In this document: positions 53,809 through 62,706 of the stretch, piece after piece
How the letters are laid out: the number at the start of each line of letters is the position of its first letter
Numbering within the stretch: position 1 is the first letter of the stretch
Assembly (NCBI GenBank): GCA_017938695.1
Contig: JAGBBA010000004.1
Location: 17,872 to 81,871 of the forward strand
Length of the DNA stretch: 64,000 bases
Source of the DNA: Clostridia bacterium
GTDB lineage: Bacteria; Bacillota; Clostridia; Christensenellales; Aristaeellaceae
Direction: 5' to 3'
The notes under the pieces: model-generated
The model's input: only the letters and a program-made list of their open reading frames with translations
The model's database searches: none
What the model was told of the DNA's origin: nothing
Made by a program: the position numbers and the translations under genes

Positions 53809-55941
53809 TTACAGCTTGATCATCTTGGTTTCCAGGGGAGCCAGGGTCAGGCATTGCGGGCCATCGGGGGTGGCGATGGTGGCGGTGATGGATTCTTCAG
53901 CGTTGTTGATGGCCACCAGGGTGCGGTCGGCAGGGTACCAGGCGGCTTCCACCAGGGCGTTGTCGGACAGGTAGTCGCCGGGCAGCTGGCAGCAGTGCAC
54001 CAGGATCTCCAGCAGCATGCGGGTGCTTTCCGGGCTGATGGAGAAGCTGCTCATGTACACGCCCTTGCCCTTGCCAAAACTGTGGATGGTCATCTGGGGC
54101 GCGCCGTTCTTTTCGCACAGCACGCGGGCGGTGCCGTCAGTGAGGTACAGGTGGGGGTTAGCGGCCAGGGCAGCTTCGTTCACGGTGAAGGGGGCAGCTT
54201 CGACTTCGTACTGCCAGCGGCCGTGGCACACGCGCTCGCCCAGGTCTTCGTCGATGCCCAGCACATGGGCCATGCGGAAGGTGCGGTCGCTGCCGCGGAC
54301 GGCGGAGGGTTCGCCCACGCCGATGAAGGTGCCGCCCTCGCCCACAAAGCGGGTCAGCTCGGCCACCAGCTCGGCGTCGTTCCAGGCGTCGCCGCCGGAC
54401 CAGGCATCGCCCATGCGGCCAGCGTTGATCACCACGTCCACGTCCTTCAATGCGCCGTGCTTCACATCGTCAAAGCTGATGAACTTCACATCCACCGGCA
54501 GGCCGGAAAGGGCCTCGTTGATGTGGATCAGGGCGTGCTTGTCGGTTTCGTGGAAGTGGCCGGACAGCGTCCAGGAGCGCAGGCTGCCCCAGGTGTGCAG
54601 CACCGCCACCCGACAGGGCAGCACATAGGGCTTGCCATTTTTGTGAAAGGACTTGATCTGCCGGAATTCATCGGACATGGCTTCGATGGTGTCGTTGAAC
54701 TCGGGGAAGGGCAGGGTCAGGTGCAGGTAGCCGCCCAGGCCGATGCGGTCCACCGGCTCGCGGAGCAGGGCGCGGCGGACGCTGCGCCAGTACAGCAGCG
54801 CATCCCGGGCAGGGTTGCCGCCCTCGGAGAAGGTGGGCGCGCCGCCCAGACCCACGGGGAACAGGTAGGGGTGGAAGCGCAGCTCGTGCACGGGCACCTT
54901 GGCGAAGGCGCACAGGCGGCATTCAAAGCCGGAGAACACGCACTTGATCAGCCCGTCAAAGCCGATGGACTGGAAACGCTTGCCGCAGGGCTCCATGCCC
55001 ACCCAGCTGTCGTCGTAGAACACATAGGCTTCCTTGCCGTGCTTGTGGATGATGTCCACCAGAGCCTTGGCTTTTTCCGCCACGAAGGCCTGGATGAAAT
55101 CCATGTAGTCCAGCTTGGCCTTGGTGGGGGGCATGTGGGTCACCTGATGCTTGCCGCCGTTCACAAAATCCTCGGCGGTGAGGGCGTAACCGTACTGCTT
55201 TTCGAATGCGTCCAGCGCGGCGGGGCTGACGGTGAAGTCGTAGCTGGCCCAGTCGGTGAACAGGTGGCGGTTGCGCAGCTCGTCGCCCCAGATCCACACA
55301 AAGTTGTAGAACAGGCTGGTGAGGCGGATCACGTTGGTCTGGGGATTTTCCACGCACCAGTCCTCCAGCCACTGCTGCAGGTATGCCCAGGTGGCAGGGT
55401 GGCGGGGGTCCAGCTGGCGCAGGTGCTCGCTGGTCCAGGAGTTGGTGGTGTGGTTGTACATGTTGATCTCTTCCCAGATGCGGTAGCACAGGAAGCCAGC
55501 CGTGTACTGGTGCCAGGGCTTGGCGGCATGCAGGGTGATCTGGCCGTCAGCATAAGTCCAGGCGTCGGGGGACACGGGCGCATTCTCCGTGCGGTCGTAA
55601 ACCTGCATGTAGCGCAGGGCATCGGGGGAGTCGTTCAGCACGAACTGCTCGGTGAAATAGCCGTCCATCAGCGGGATGACCGCGGTGGTGCCTTCAGCCG
55701 TCACGGCCTTGGAGCACAGGAAGGTCTGCTGCTGGGCGTCGGGATGCTCCTGGGCAAAGGCGTTGTGCTGGCGGATGATGCAGATGGTGGAATAAATGCG
55801 GTAGCCAGCCTCCACGATCTCGGGGGAGAGCTTGGTGCCGTCGCTGTCGCGGATCACATCTGCGCCCCACTTCTTGGCCAGCTCCAGGGTCAGGGACTCA
55901 TAGCCAGCTTCGCCGGGCAGGGTAAAATCAGCTCGTTTCAT
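53809..55941 (-). CDS. GH112 phosphorylase, probably galactosyl-beta-1,4-L-rhamnose phosphorylase
   Basis: 710 residues, full-length GH112. The start FTLPGEAGYESLTLELAKKWGADVIRDSDGTKLSPEIV, IPLMDGYFTEQF, the EINMYNHTTNSWT segment and YVFYDDSWVGMEPCG match galacto-N-biose/lacto-N-biose phosphorylase; D311 in DDSWVG is the expected general acid. GH112 members act on beta-1,3-galactosyl-HexNAc or on galactosyl-beta-1,4-rhamnose, giving galactose-1-phosphate. The pectin context (PL11, GH105, GH106-like) favours the rhamnose-specific type, since rhamnogalacturonan-I rhamnose carries beta-1,4-galactose. No signal peptide. Downstream of GH105 by nine bases. Confidence 0.9.
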   Translation of the reverse strand: MKRADFTLPGEAGYESLTLELAKKWGADVIRDSDGTKLSPEIVEAGYRIYSTICIIRQHNAFAQEHPDAQQQTFLCSKAVTAEGTTAVIPLMDGYFTEQFVLNDSPDALRYMQVYDRTENAPVSPDAWTYADGQITLHAAKPWHQYTAGFLCYRIWEEINMYNHTTNSWTSEHLRQLDPRHPATWAYLQQWLEDWCVENPQTNVIRLTSLFYNFVWIWGDELRNRHLFTDWASYDFTVSPAALDAFEKQYGYALTAEDFVNGGKHQVTHMPPTKAKLDYMDFIQAFVAEKAKALVDIIHKHGKEAYVFYDDSWVGMEPCGKRFQSIGFDGLIKCVFSGFECRLCAFAKVPVHELRFHPYLFPVGLGGAPTFSEGGNPARDALLYWRSVRRALLREPVDRIGLGGYLHLTLPFPEFNDTIEAMSDEFRQIKSFHKNGKPYVLPCRVAVLHTWGSLRSWTLSGHFHETDKHALIHINEALSGLPVDVKFISFDDVKHGALKDVDVVINAGRMGDAWSGGDAWNDAELVAELTRFVGEGGTFIGVGEPSAVRGSDRTFRMAHVLGIDEDLGERVCHGRWQYEVEAAPFTVNEAALAANPHLYLTDGTARVLCEKNGAPQMTIHSFGKGKGVYMSSFSISPESTRMLLEILVHCCQLPGDYLSDNALVEAAWYPADRTLVAINNAEESITATIATPDGPQCLTLAPLETKMIKL

Positions 55942-55950
55942 GGTGCCTCC

Positions 55951-57000
55951 TTACAGCGCGCCGTCGCCCTGGCAGCTCTGGCACTCCCACACGGCGGCGA
56001 GGAATGCCAATGCCAGGCCCTGGCCCCAGCCCTGGGTCCACTTGCGCGGAATATTGCGGTAGCCGTCGCGATCCTTCATCACGGCGGTGCCGCCGGACAC
56101 GTTCAGCACGCGGCCTTCGGGGCTGATGTTGGCCAGAATGCCCTCAACGGCCTTGTTGATATACTTGGTGTGCAGGGGATTGCCCTTGAGCACCATGGCG
56201 GCAGCGATGCCGGCGGAGGCAGAAACCTCCTCGTAGCTCTCCGGGTCGTCCAGGATGGTGCGCCACAGGCCGTTTTCGGTCTGCAACAGCTTCAGGGCGG
56301 CCAGCTGCTCGGCCAGGGAGCCGGAAATATCCATGTACTTGGGATAGAGGTAGCACTCCGGCAGCACGCGGCCAGCCTGGCTCATGGTATAGGCGGCCCA
56401 GGCGTTGGCGCGGCCCCAGTAGAAGCCGGACATGTGGCCCTTTTCAATATTGTTGTAGCCGTGGTACCACAGGCCGGTCTTCTGATCCTGCAAATATTCA
56501 ATGTGCCAGAAATACTGGTTCAGCGCATCGTTCACCAGTTCTTCATCCTTCCAGGCCACACCGGCGCGGAGCATGAAGAACGCAGCCATGAACAGGGTGT
56601 CGGCCCAGCACTGCTCGGGGAAGTCGTTCTTGGCAGACACAGTGTGCTGCAGAACGCTGTCGCCAAAGCGCAAGGCATGGTTGCGCAGGTAGTCGATCTT
56701 GCTTTCGGCGATCTTCTTGTATTTCTCGTCGCCGGTGACCTCGTGGAGGGTCAGCATGGCGTGGCCCATGGAGCAGGTGTTCACCGTCCAGTTGGGCAGG
56801 CCAAGCTCGATATATTCATCCACCCGGGCCTTGACCAGGTCCAGGTATTCCTGCTTGCCGGTGGCGCGATAGGCTTCGCAGATGCCGAAATAAGCCACAC
56901 CGCAGGGCCAGTCCCACACCATGTCCATGTTCATGGTCTGATGGACCACAGCATCTATTGCAGCCAGCACACGTTCCTGGTCGAAAACGATGTTTGCCAT
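55951..57000 (-). CDS. GH105 unsaturated rhamnogalacturonyl hydrolase (YteR/YesR-like)
   Basis: 349 residues, an alpha/alpha six-barrel. WDWPCGVAYFGICEAYRATG, FPEQCWADTLFMAAFFMLRAG, GFYWGRANAWAAYTMSQ and the end RNIPRKWTQGWGQGLALAFLAAVWE follow YteR. It hydrolyses the unsaturated uronate that PL11 leaves at the non-reducing end of rhamnogalacturonan fragments, so it acts straight after the lyase. Start at 57000 (MANIVFDQ) after AAGGAGGAACATTC; the frame runs upstream to 57090 through the promoter and is not coding. First gene of the minus-strand pair with GH112. Confidence 0.93.
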   Translation of the reverse strand: MANIVFDQERVLAAIDAVVHQTMNMDMVWDWPCGVAYFGICEAYRATGKQEYLDLVKARVDEYIELGLPNWTVNTCSMGHAMLTLHEVTGDEKYKKIAESKIDYLRNHALRFGDSVLQHTVSAKNDFPEQCWADTLFMAAFFMLRAGVAWKDEELVNDALNQYFWHIEYLQDQKTGLWYHGYNNIEKGHMSGFYWGRANAWAAYTMSQAGRVLPECYLYPKYMDISGSLAEQLAALKLLQTENGLWRTILDDPESYEEVSASAGIAAAMVLKGNPLHTKYINKAVEGILANISPEGRVLNVSGGTAVMKDRDGYRNIPRKWTQGWGQGLALAFLAAVWECQSCQGDGAL

Positions 57001-57054
57001 TGAATGTTCCTCCTTGGTATAGATTTGTGGCATATCAGTATCCTTTGTACCAAT

Positions 57055-57083
57055 ATTATACCAAAACGCCGGGGGCAATTCAA
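57055..57083 (-). promoter_or_regulatory. Promoter of the GH105-GH112 operon
   Basis: Minus strand TTGAAT (57078-57083), 17 bases, TATAAT (57055-57060). The -10 box lies in TTGGTATAATATTGGTACAA, in which a GGTA-type repeat occurs twice. Confidence 0.7.
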
Positions 57084-57143
57084 ATTTCACGGCCTTTCGG
57101 AGTGCACATTTCCGAGCAAATACTGTGTAATTCTGTCCAACTT

Positions 57144-59814: not shown

Positions 59815-60007
59815 GCTGATCAGTCCTTTCCGGCGGAATGGCCGGAAGCAGCGCGGAAATCAAACGCACGTTAAAGCGCGCGCACCTCAAAGGAGCGCTG
59901 TTCCCGGACGGTTGCGGTGTTACTACCAGGGTCGGTATCCATGGAATAAGCCAGCTCCTTTCATTGATTTCGGCCTGTGACCGATGCGGAAGGGCAAACT
60001 TCCTTAT
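59815..60007 (-). promoter_or_regulatory. Structured leader of corA (candidate magnesium-responsive element)
   Basis: On the minus strand: stem GGAAG/CTTCC, stem CGG/CCG, long-range stem AAAGGAGC (59954-59961) with GCTCCTTT (59889-59896), then TTCCGGC/GCCGGAA (about 59828-59847) directly before the corA ribosome site. It does not fit the M-box or the yybP-ykoY consensus. Upstream ORFs overlap the long stem. Confidence 0.6.
59871..59942 (-). CDS. Upstream ORF in the corA leader, 23 aa
   Basis: Starts MDTDPGSNTATV and ends at TAA (59871). A Shine-Dalgarno sequence AAAGGAG lies 12 bases before the ATG and is itself the left arm of the long stem; the right arm GCTCCTTT is inside the ORF (codons 16-18). 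The acidic/proline start resembles the MEPDPTP start of Salmonella MgtL, a magnesium-sensing leader peptide. Another ORF of 13 codons (MKGAGLFHGYRPW, 59923-59964) overlaps it but lacks a ribosome site. Confidence 0.45.
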   Translation of the reverse strand: MDTDPGSNTATVREQRSFEVRAL

Positions 60008-60012
60008 CTACC

Positions 60013-60041
60013 ATAATAGACACAGCGACAGAAAAAGTCAA
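60013..60041 (-). promoter_or_regulatory. Promoter of the corA-serine hydrolase operon
   Basis: Minus strand TTGACT (60036-60041), 17 bases, TATTAT (60013-60018). Transcription would start about 60006, at the beginning of the structured leader. The stretch 60042-60170 between this and the nrdD promoter is AT-rich and empty. Confidence 0.65.
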
Positions 60042-60223: not shown

Positions 60224-60271
60224 TACACCACAAGATGTGGTTTCCCCAGCTATGAACACACCACAAGCGGT
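60224..60271 (+). promoter_or_regulatory. Two tandem operator-like boxes (candidate NrdR sites)
   Basis: ACCACA-AGA-TGTGGT (60227-60241) is a perfect inverted repeat. A second box beginning ACCACAAG at 60260 (ACCACAAGCGGT) lies 33 bases downstream, about three helical turns. Both lie just after the start of transcription of nrdD. Paired boxes at about 31-33 base spacing are the known layout of NrdR operators. The remaining leader to 60384 contains a GAGGGAA/TTCCCTTTTC stem of unknown meaning. Confidence 0.5.
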
Positions 60272-60384: not shown

Positions 60385-62706
60385 ATGGCGATCATCAACA
60401 TCCGTAAACGCGACGGCCGCATGGTAGAGTTTGACCAGGCCAAGATCGAGAATGCCATTCTGCGCGCCTTCCAGGCTTCTTCCAGTGCCAAGGGCCGCGA
60501 AACTGCCCAGGCCCTGGCCGAGCGCGTGGTGGCCGAGCTGGACAATAACGAGAACGTGTCTTCCACCCCCACGGTGGAGCAGGTGCAGGACACCGTTGAA
60601 CGGGTGCTGATCGAGAAGGGCTTTGTGCGCAGCGCGAAGGCCTACATTCTGTATCGCGCTGAGCGCAGCCGCGTGCGCGAAATGAACACCCGTCTGATGA
60701 AGACCTTCGAGGACATCACCTTCAAGGACGCCATCGACTCCGACATCAAGCGCGAGAACGCCAACATCAACGGCGATACCGCCATGGGCTCCATGCTCAA
60801 GTTCGGTTCCGAGGGTGCCAAGCAGTTCTACGATATGTATGTGCTGGATCCCCGTTTTGCCCAGGCGCACCGCGAGGGCGACATCCACATCCACGATCTG
60901 GACTTCTACACCCTGACCACCACCTGCTGCCAGATCCAGCTGTCCACCCTGTTCAAGGACGGCTTCTCCACCGGCCACGGCTATCTGCGCGAGCCCCAGG
61001 ACATCACCAGCTATGCCGCCCTGTGCTGCATCGCCATCCAGGCGAACCAGAACGACCAGCACGGCGGCCAGAGCGTGGTGGACTTCGACTACGGCATGGC
61101 TCCCGGCGTGAAGAAGACCTTCATCAAGCGTTACCGCATGAACATGTCCCGCGCCCTGGAGCTGCTGGTGGGCGATGAGCATGCTGAAGAGAACGCTGCC
61201 GAGATCATGAGCAAGCTGGCTGAGAGCGGCATGTCCCCCTCCCTGGAGCCCAGCGAGGAGCAGAACGCTGCCGTGCTGGCCCTGCTGATGGAAAAGATCA
61301 ACGACGAAGTGCAGGCCAAGCACATCATCGACTTTGCCCAGAAGCACGCTTGGAAGGAAACCGACAAGGCCACCTTCCAGGCCATGGAAGCCCTGGTGCA
61401 CAACCTGAATACCATGAACAGCCGCGCCGGTGCGCAGGTGCCCTTCTCCTCCATCAACTACGGCATGGATACCTCTCCCGAGGGCCGCATGGTGATGAAG
61501 AACCTGCTCCACGCCACCGAGGACGGTCTGGGCGGCGGCGAGACCCCCATCTTCCCCATCCAGATCTTCCGCGTGAAGGAAGGCATCAACTTCAACCCCG
61601 GCGAGCCTAACTACGACCTGTACCGCCTGGCCATCAAGACCAGCGCGAAGCGTCTGTTCCCCAACTTCTCCTTTGTGGACGCGCCTTACAACCTGCAGTA
61701 CTACAAGCCCGGCCATCCCGAGACCGAGATCGCCTACATGGGCTGCCGTACCCGCGTGATGGGCAACGTGTACGATCCCAAGCGCGAAGTGGCTCCCCGC
61801 CGCGGCAATCTGTCCTTCACCTCCATCAACCTGCCCCGTATCGCCATCAAGGCCAACGGCGACGTGCAGTGGTTCTTTGAGGAGCTGGAGCGCAAGATGC
61901 AGCTGGTGGCCGCTCAGCTGGACGAGCGCATGGCCATCATCAGCAAGAAGAAGGTCCGCAACTTCCCCTTCCTGATGGGCCAGGGCGTGTGGATCGACTC
62001 CGAGCGTCTGGACTGGAACGACACCGTGGAGGAAGTCCTCAAGCACGGCACGCTGACCATCGGCTTCATCGGCCTGGCCGAAGCCCTGGTGGCCCTGCGC
62101 GGCAAGCATCACGGCGAATGTGAAGAGAGCCAGAACCTGGGTCTGGAGATCATCGGTGCCATGCGTTCCTTCACCGATAAGCTCTCCCGTGAGCGCGGCC
62201 TGAACTACACCCTGATCGCCACCCCCGCCGAGGGCCTGTCCGGCCGTTTCATCCGCCTGGACAAGGAGAAGTTCGGCGTGATCCCCGGCGTGACCGAGCG
62301 CGACTACTACACCAACAGCTTCCATGTGCCGGTGTATCACGCCTGCTCCGCCTTCCATAAGCTGTCCATCGAGGCACCTTATCATGCCCTGACCAACGCT
62401 GGCCACATCTCCTATGTGGAAATGGACGGCGATCCCCTGCAGAACCTGGACGCCTTTGAGAAGATCGTCCGCTTCATGCATGACAAGGGCATCGGCTACG
62501 GCTCCATCAACCACCCTGTTGACCGCGACCCCGTCTGCGGCTACAACGGCATCATCGGCGACGAGTGCCCCTGCTGCCACCGCAAGGAAGACGGCCGTCC
62601 CTTCGAGCGTATCCGCCGCATCACCGGCTACCTCGTCGGCACCCTGGATCGCTTCAACAACGCCAAGCGCGCCGAAGAACACGACCGCGTGAAGCACGGG
62701 GTTTAA
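60385..62706 (+). CDS. nrdD: Anaerobic ribonucleoside-triphosphate reductase
   Basis: 773 residues, class III reductase that makes dNTPs without oxygen. The N-terminal ATP-cone (INIRKRDGRMVEFDQAKIENAILRAFQAS, residues 4-95) gives allosteric control. The core includes HDLDFYTLTTTCCQIQL and SYAALCCIAIQANQNDQHGGQS. The C-terminal zinc site uses cysteines near C718, C728 and C730/C731 (VCGYNG, ECPCCHRK), and the glycyl radical is G748 in RITGYLVG. Strong AGGAGG ribosome site. Candidate NrdR boxes upstream. The activase nrdG follows after a 298-base gap filled by repeat copy F. Confidence 0.96.
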   Translation: MAIINIRKRDGRMVEFDQAKIENAILRAFQASSSAKGRETAQALAERVVAELDNNENVSSTPTVEQVQDTVERVLIEKGFVRSAKAYILYRAERSRVREMNTRLMKTFEDITFKDAIDSDIKRENANINGDTAMGSMLKFGSEGAKQFYDMYVLDPRFAQAHREGDIHIHDLDFYTLTTTCCQIQLSTLFKDGFSTGHGYLREPQDITSYAALCCIAIQANQNDQHGGQSVVDFDYGMAPGVKKTFIKRYRMNMSRALELLVGDEHAEENAAEIMSKLAESGMSPSLEPSEEQNAAVLALLMEKINDEVQAKHIIDFAQKHAWKETDKATFQAMEALVHNLNTMNSRAGAQVPFSSINYGMDTSPEGRMVMKNLLHATEDGLGGGETPIFPIQIFRVKEGINFNPGEPNYDLYRLAIKTSAKRLFPNFSFVDAPYNLQYYKPGHPETEIAYMGCRTRVMGNVYDPKREVAPRRGNLSFTSINLPRIAIKANGDVQWFFEELERKMQLVAAQLDERMAIISKKKVRNFPFLMGQGVWIDSERLDWNDTVEEVLKHGTLTIGFIGLAEALVALRGKHHGECEESQNLGLEIIGAMRSFTDKLSRERGLNYTLIATPAEGLSGRFIRLDKEKFGVIPGVTERDYYTNSFHVPVYHACSAFHKLSIEAPYHALTNAGHISYVEMDGDPLQNLDAFEKIVRFMHDKGIGYGSINHPVDRDPVCGYNGIIGDECPCCHRKEDGRPFERIRRITGYLVGTLDRFNNAKRAEEHDRVKHGV

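Follow-up and report, generated by a model that had tools for sequence, protein, structure and literature searches.

How the expression of a CorA-type Mg2+ channel is controlled is the question raised by a locus of the window, a term that denotes here the whole 64,000-nt stretch of DNA that was analysed (contig JAGBBA010000004.1 of the Clostridia bacterium assembly GCA_017938695.1). The leader of this corA gene contains a small upstream open reading frame (uORF) that begins with acidic and proline codons and overlaps stems of the leader RNA. The reading argued for below is that the leader is probably a ribosome-mediated attenuator of corA, which would be switched on at low Mg2+ by means of a uORF beginning M-D-x-D-P.

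The features of the locus are collected in Table 1. With the promoter at 60041-60013, the leader is around 190 nt long and includes the uORF. The original prediction, which was made from the window alone, had described a 23-codon uORF in this leader, a perfect 8-bp pairing of the uORF Shine-Dalgarno with codons 16-18 of the same uORF, a last hairpin at the corA ribosome site, a CorA-type gene downstream, and the lack of an M-box; all of these descriptions hold, and the two arms of the last hairpin (59841-59847 and 59828-59834) adjoin AAAGGA. Searching Rfam gave nothing for the window leader at the gathering score and, with E up to 10, only three sub-threshold, chance-like matches, with no M-box (RF00380) at either level, and an M-box or any other Rfam family was therefore rejected for this leader. 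A promoter of the same kind, TTGACN-(16-18)-TANNNT, begins 69-99 nt before the uORF in 33 of the 34 distinct leaders from the family (those whose CorA is at least 66% identical), and a uORF with a Shine-Dalgarno stands before corA in all 34, between promoter and gene as an attenuator would have it wherever the promoter is recognised (33/34). A transcription start past the uORF, which the original prediction had allowed for, is argued against by this placing of the promoter in the window and in those 33 leaders.

Table 1. Features of the corA locus (positions are those of the window).
Feature	Position	Strand	Basis
Sigma-70-like promoter of the corA transcript, TTGACT-17-TATTAT	60013..60041	-	Sequence; like arrangement in 33/34 distinct family leaders
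Small hairpin GGAAG...CTTCC close to where the transcript is predicted to begin	59988..60003	-	Seen by eye
Arm 1, AAAGGAGC, Shine-Dalgarno of the uORF	59954..59961	-	Relatives retain the pairing with arm 2, with covariation
Leader-peptide uORF, 23 codons, MDTDPGSNTATVREQRSFEVRAL	59871..59942	-	Counterpart in 34/34 distinct family leaders
uORF codons 2-7, D-T-D-P-G-S, conserved acidic/proline start	59922..59939	-	Leader comparison
uORF codon 7, nearly invariant AGT serine codon	59922-59924	-	Leader comparison
Arm 2 in its pairing with arm 1, GCTCCTTT, uORF codons 16-18	59889..59896	-	Inverted repeat
Arm 2 in its pairing with arm 3, CCGGGAACAGCGC, within the uORF	59895..59907	-	13 nt, 85% complementary
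Arm 3, GCGCTGCTTCCGG	59842..59854	-	2:3 pairing covaries in 19 relatives
Hairpin 3:4, TTCCGGC-loop-GCCGGAA, adjoining the corA Shine-Dalgarno	59828..59847	-	Inverted repeat; T-run after its counterpart in 19 aligned relatives
corA Shine-Dalgarno AAAGGA	59824..59829	-	Identical in all 10 leaders of alignment A2
corA, CorA-type Mg2+ channel gene, 315 aa	58867..59814	-	PF01544, E 4.4e-60

The surroundings of the leader may be described briefly. Hairpins shaped like the one at 59988-60003 (minus strand), with different sequences, are seen by eye in the leaders of several relatives. Just past the corA stop, a gene with a Beta-lactamase-family domain begins (PF00144; 57422-58855, minus strand), which would probably share the corA transcript, and Lacto-N-biose phosphorylase and GH88-type genes lie next to each other (53809-57090, minus strand). 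Between corA and a divergent gene (60385-62706, plus strand), which we take to resemble an anaerobic ribonucleotide reductase, the direct repeat CTTGTGGTGT is present in two copies (60258-60267 and 60225-60234, minus strand). An intrinsic terminator within the window leader was considered and rejected: the single weak site, GCGCGC...GTGCGT followed by TTTGATTT, is not above shuffle expectation.

The peptide start recurs in relatives. A search for corA gave matches in 95 of 300 family genomes, many of them weak paralogues, and 80 loci were taken from named contigs. A uORF with a Shine-Dalgarno and the start M-(0-3 residues)-[DE]x[DE]P is present in all 30 distinct leaders of loci L001-L036 (100 shuffles: mean 0.04, maximum 1). 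Among the 74 distant loci L037-L110, the same motif M-(0-3)-[DE]x[DE]P is found in 13 (shuffles: mean 0.07, maximum 1) and the broader M-(0-3)-[DE]x[DEG]P in 31, and the control open reading frames of L031-L110 show the narrow motif in 1 of 222 and the broad one in 2 of 222, these controls being reading frames of at least 150 codons taken mechanically from both strands and not verified genes. One further distant locus, L041, reads VDADPKRT and went uncounted, having failed the Shine-Dalgarno filter. In 43 of the 74 distant corA leaders neither form of the motif is present, which counts against the attenuator reading, and a uORF of the MDxDP type is also missing from L138 and from three loci of group g28 (L143-L145).

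In the 34 family leaders, codon 4 is Asp and codon 5 is Pro without exception, the latter through all four Pro codons; codon 2 is Asp in 32 leaders and Glu in the remaining 2, Tyr stands at codon 6 in 28 and Ser at codon 7 in 30, and GTG, ATG and TTG all serve as start codons of the uORF. Averaged over codons 2-7, column identity is 0.93, 0.92 and 0.69 at codon positions 1, 2 and 3, and conservation declines past codon 7. The family uORFs were picked by a motif that fixes parts of codons 2, 4 and 5 (no leader was lost thereby), so that the free evidence consists of the occurrence of a uORF in every leader and of the third positions of codons 3, 5 and 6. On this comparison of leaders, the constraint is one on amino acids rather than on DNA, with third codon positions drifting, and the reading frame is kept in relatives at its acidic/proline start, as the original prediction required. 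Conserved acidic codons, often joined by proline, at the very start are what a peptide of the MgtL/MgtQ type has, and five CorA paralogue leaders of the genus g35 read MDPEPRP or MDPDPRP.

One codon behaves differently. The first serine at codons 6-12 is encoded by AGT in 57 of the 59 corA uORFs that have one (31/31 in the family, 26/28 in the distant loci), and AGT accounts for 13 of 709 serines in the corA genes of L001-L110 that belong to the family and for 203 of 1516 in the distant ones. This observation points to a codon-level rule for the serine, as an exception to conservation at the level of amino acids. Its near-invariance at the DNA level is also what would be expected if the conserved stretch were an RNA element, such as a riboswitch or a protein site, in which the reading frame is incidental. 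Such an element is highly improbable: conservation tracks codon positions, AGT is not fixed in position and, in the distant uORFs, has flanks of low conservation, and the window leader has no Rfam match at the gathering score.

Beyond the two stems of the original prediction, which contained neither a 2:3 arm nor an attenuator logic, a third pairing was found between 59842-59854 and 59895-59907. Since this 13-nt pairing (85% complementary) overlaps both of the other stems, the three stems 1:2, 2:3 and 3:4 are mutually exclusive, as in a classical attenuator; one of them overlaps the uORF and one is a hairpin of the terminator or ribosome-site kind. The 1:2 stem alone is weak evidence: of 1000 shuffled leaders, 221 contain a perfect 8-bp inverted repeat of one sequence or another. 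The exact partner of the uORF Shine-Dalgarno, GCTCCTTT, turns up in only 24 of 5000 shuffles when the region between the uORF start and corA is shuffled. The window leader as a whole folds better than its shuffles (z -2.61), 3 of 200 of which are equally good.

Comparison between leaders carries more. When arms were swapped among the 34 leaders, a leader's own arms paired better on average than swapped arms, both for 1:2 (-19.2 against -16.1 kcal/mol) and for 2:3 (-35.4 against -29.3 kcal/mol), and both means lay below all of 5000 permutations; the arm of the same leader ranks first among the possible partners in only 7 of 34 rows for 1:2 and 4 of 34 for 2:3, which counts against the pairings. 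In alignment A1, made of 19 leaders of the sister group, 1:2 is paired in 91.2% (slid controls at most 51%) with 5 doubly changed cells, 2:3 is paired in 88.3% (slid controls at most 57.9%) with 8 doubly changed cells, and the covariation score of either stem is reached by none of 500 shuffles. Relatedness is not fully controlled in the swap and covariation tests, the latter being made without a tree. Weaker measures discriminate less in A1: pairs changed on both sides are matched by 52 (1:2) and 76 (2:3) of 500 shuffles, further pair types are reached by 27 (1:2) and 247 (2:3), and on both of these measures the real structure is exceeded by one of the slid controls of 2:3. Alignment A2, made of 10 leaders of the window's wider group, aligns poorly outside L001-L006 and was therefore left out of the pair counts; RNAalifold gives it a weak consensus (-4.84 kcal/mol) in which the uORF Shine-Dalgarno is paired with another stretch, and this too counts against the scheme. 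The pairing of the uORF Shine-Dalgarno with the uORF interior, which the original prediction required relatives to keep, is retained in them with some compensatory change. With reading frame and pairing kept, and the promoter lying upstream of the uORF, the MgtL-like interpretation comes out supported by the checks made on it.

The third stem, 3:4, is paired in 98.2% of A1 and is nearly invariant, so it offers no covariation signal to read. It has the form CCTGCC...GGCAGG, or nearly so, and is followed by four to eight T a few bases from the corA start. In these 19 relatives it has the look, as judged from the letters, of an intrinsic terminator next to the start codon of corA; among the 34 family leaders, 23 have at least four T in the 12 nt before corA. 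In the window, the corresponding hairpin TTCCGGC/GCCGGAA extends two bases into the corA Shine-Dalgarno AAAGGA.

Predicted folding allows the consequences of ribosome position to be followed. For a transcript reaching only as far as the uORF stop, 27 of 29 leaders have a predicted probability of at least 0.60 that arm 1 pairs within the uORF, the exceptions being L024 (0.00) and L124 (0.26), and in the window the uORF Shine-Dalgarno is predicted to pair with the uORF interior at 1.00. When whole leaders are folded, arm 1 pairing falls to 0.06 or less in L006, L010, L013, L019, L024 and L129, which counts against the scheme. A ribosome placed at the uORF stop leaves the terminator arm predicted to pair with arm 3 at 0.84-1.00 in all 19 relatives, and a ribosome placed near codon 5 lowers this pairing below 0.6 in 13 of them; in the other 6 (L016, L017, L021, L022, L023 and L028), the predicted terminator stays at 0.87 or more despite the paused ribosome, again counting against the scheme. 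With no ribosome, the predicted terminator pairing is at least 0.84 in 14 of 19, 0.51 in L018, 0.27 in L026 and at most 0.04 in L019, L024 and L129. For the corA AGGA of the window, the predicted pairing is 0.30 in the free leader, 0.44 with a paused ribosome and 0.31 with a ribosome at the stop; being nearly constant, it predicts no clear ribosome-site switch for the window species. In L010, L012 and L013, a switch between the paused and the stop states is predicted.

What the ribosome might be reading is suggested by the genes that follow such uORFs, which encode Mg2+ transporters as they would for a peptide of the MgtL/MgtQ type: CorA in the loci above and MgtE in others. A DNA pattern for [MV]DxDPYS matches in 25 of 308 family genomes, once in each, and 24 of these matches lie upstream of corA; the remaining one (L115) has an in-frame stop and no corA adjacent. 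A scan of 391 genomes of the class for a Shine-Dalgarno followed by MDxDP gave at least 24 matches in 23 genomes, these counts being lower bounds because the pattern demands GGAGG. Sixteen of the matches are open short uORFs and 8 are the starts of longer reading frames. The targets of the 16 are corA in 10, mgtE in 2 (L156 and L160) and a gene with MgtE_N, CBS and PRC domains in 1 (L153); the other three (L161, L165 and L167) stand before reading frames to which no identity was assigned. Among the 30 best-scoring MgtE loci, which are not a random sample, the motif was found in 4; start codons in the MgtE loci were set mechanically, those of L185, L187 and L200 falling far into the locus, and the upstream stretches of L181 and L194 are short. 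An MgtE was not found in the window's own genome (87.5% complete). The pattern MDPEP/MEPEP gave 6 matches in 6 of 381 genomes, of which 3 are short reading frames and only one (L201, the same place as L189) precedes mgtE; as it requires GGAG and missed a g35 genome in the set, it carries little information on frequency.

The association extends to M-boxes. Rfam finds an M-box in 7 of the 74 distant corA loci, and 5 of these 7 (L037, L047, L051, L053 and L078) carry the uORF downstream of it; the same order, with the M-box first and the uORF after it, is seen before corA in L148-L151 and L170 and before mgtE in L156 and L160. Of the 10 class-scan corA loci, 5 have no M-box match. UORFs of the same type before mgtE, and M-box riboswitches upstream of several uORFs, strengthen the link to Mg2+. 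Two side observations belong here. In L156, a second frame with a Shine-Dalgarno, starting MESGSDS, lies between the M-box and the MDFDPLP uORF of mgtE. Membrane proteins of the CNNM/CorC type (L154:239-1567 and L163:1515-2828 by Pfam, L164 by likeness) themselves start MDADP or MDPDP, which is possibly the same signal inside a protein, or chance.

Two other explanations bear on these results. In one, the leader would still be an attenuator of corA, and the ribosome would sense general translation stress, a particular tRNA or decoding state (for example, of serine AGU), or the activity of EF-P or ABC-F. The AGT codon of 57 of 59 uORFs argues for this, as it is a codon-level constraint for which destabilisation by acidic residues and proline does not account. 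Against it, the uORF is associated with M-boxes and with Mg2+ transporters of two unrelated families, and a decoding of serine AGU in particular fits poorly with the mgtE uORFs, in which AGT is not general; a signal other than Mg2+ is accordingly unlikely. In the other explanation, the uORF would only bring ribosomes to the corA start, or withhold them from it, by coupling or standby, and the peptide would matter little. Such coupling is consistent with the four mgtE loci, where the uORF ends 14-15 nt ahead of the mgtE start. It is very unlikely for corA, since the peptide is conserved at residues 2-5 even though several third positions, and the codons past 7, vary, arms 2 and 3 covary, and a terminator-like hairpin lies between uORF and corA in the 19 aligned family leaders.

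Attenuation in response to Mg2+ remains the preferred reading, and its steps can be set out as follows. M-D-x-D-P belongs to a type of sequence known to slow or dislodge ribosomes when Mg2+ is low. A defining trait of MgtL/MgtQ-type leaders is that low Mg2+ slows or aborts translation of their uORF, an effect countered by bL31 or EttA. The conserved Met-Asp-x-Asp-Pro start, together with its overlap with a three-way RNA switch, suggests that the uORF probably reads Mg2+ through the ribosome; we infer that ribosomes translate the uORF, with Mg2+ as the signal, and that the response has the direction given here. At low Mg2+, ribosomes would be held at the first uORF codons, or would restart on them, and would mask arm 1; arm 2 would then pair with arm 3, 3:4 would be blocked and corA would be expressed. 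With ample Mg2+, the ribosome would run through the uORF and cover arm 2, so that 3:4 would form and corA would be off. If no ribosome were present, 1:2 would form and 3:4 would again be left to form. In many family members, where 3:4 is terminator-like and lies beside the corA start codon, the control would be one of transcription; in the close relatives of the window, where the 3:4 hairpin lies at the corA ribosome site, it might be one of translation or take another route, and the hairpin of the window could act by crowding the ribosome site, through mRNA stability or through Rho. Pure drop-off of ribosomes would let 1:2 re-form, so the sign of the response depends on the rate at which ribosomes reload. 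Uncertainty attaches to Mg2+ as the signal, to whether ribosomes pause or drop off, and to the output in the genus of the window.

As to the wider meaning, there is about an even chance that these leaders represent a Clostridia-wide class of ribosome-based Mg2+ sensors, of separate origin from mgtL, mgtQ and corL, in which an M-[DE]-x-[DG]-P peptide (with a required AGU serine before corA) would control corA or mgtE by means of intrinsic terminators or ribosome-site hairpins, stacked below M-boxes in several lineages. If this is true, two chemically different Mg2+ sensors would share a single mRNA in those lineages, and the reading of Mg2+ via the ribosome would have had more than one origin and would be common throughout a major Firmicutes group. 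The short codon-constrained start would, moreover, constitute a compact test of which translation step senses Mg2+.

Among known systems, in the trp and his attenuators ribosome position chooses between terminator and antiterminator. The ilvB leader attenuator, as outlined in PMC11109978, is alike in that the position of the ribosome sets terminator against antiterminator. The difference is that trp, his and ilvB read the supply of an amino acid through enriched regulatory codons, whereas inspection of the listed uORFs reveals neither a run nor an enrichment of codons for a regulated amino acid, a single AGU serine being conserved. The M-box (ykoK, RF00380) controls the same kinds of genes and lies upstream of the uORF in several loci; it differs in being an RNA aptamer rather than a translated sensor, and it is missing from the window at the gathering score. 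A conserved uORF with a conserved proline also lies below an M-box in Mycobacterium tuberculosis (Rv1805A; PMC12810186), but it is described there as specific to mycobacteria and of unclear role, its proline is at position 7 and an M-D-x-D-P start is not mentioned in the available part of that paper.

Several surveys are relevant to whether this type of leader has been described. The main texts of structured-RNA screens that list uORF candidates (PMC11109978 and PMC8632094) leave corA unmentioned, in the portions available, and the corresponding portion of a terminator-based screen mentions neither corA nor mgtE (PMC2965389). The "mgtE motif" riboswitch candidate is, according to the accessible text of PMC11109978, confined to Thioalkalivibrio, a different host group. 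No description of a class of M-D-x-D-P uORFs before corA or mgtE was found in the open-access PMC literature, including PMC4072509, within the parts of these texts that could be consulted. The literature cited here, as far as its available text goes, places Mg2+ control by ribosome-destabilising leader peptides in enterobacteria.

It is with these enterobacterial systems that the closest comparison can be made. The mgtL leader of mgtA in Salmonella and E. coli resembles the present uORFs in its acidic and proline-rich N-terminal start, with an EPDP motif (PMC11282234), and the CorA leaders of g35, which read MDPEPRP or MDPDPRP, resemble the enterobacterial MgtL start in particular (PMC11282234); this likeness comes without evidence of common descent. 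According to the passages cited, mgtL acts by Rho-dependent termination (PMC11552253 and PMC11282234), though E. coli may differ (PMC11552253); here, by contrast, many relatives have terminator-like hairpins and the targets are corA or mgtE. Enterobacterial corL is similarly a uORF in a corA leader, the translation of which opposes corA expression, but it has a UUG start, a single proline in its conserved start, an involvement of Rho and another peptide (PMC11552253, in the sections cited).

A close counterpart is Salmonella mgtQ-mgtB, for which the roles of the Asp2 and Glu5 codons and of stems 1:2/3:4 versus 2:3 have been shown by experiment (PMC8092293, in the part cited). Both systems have a short uORF with early Asp or Glu codons, three alternative stems and an Mg2+ transporter as the target; in mgtQ, 3:4 masks the mgtB ribosome site, and destabilised ribosomes favour 2:3, which turns the gene on (PMC8092293). 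By analogy, the attenuator logic proposed here would equal that of mgtQ-mgtB as presented there (PMC8092293). The differences are that mgtQ is an 8-codon frame lying between operon genes before mgtB, whereas the present uORF, with another peptide, lies in the 5' leader of corA or mgtE in Clostridia, and that many members of the family described here have a 3:4 resembling an intrinsic terminator. From mgtL, mgtQ and corL as a group, the present leaders differ in lineage and target genes, in their terminator-like hairpins and AGU codon, and in the tandem arrangement with the M-box.
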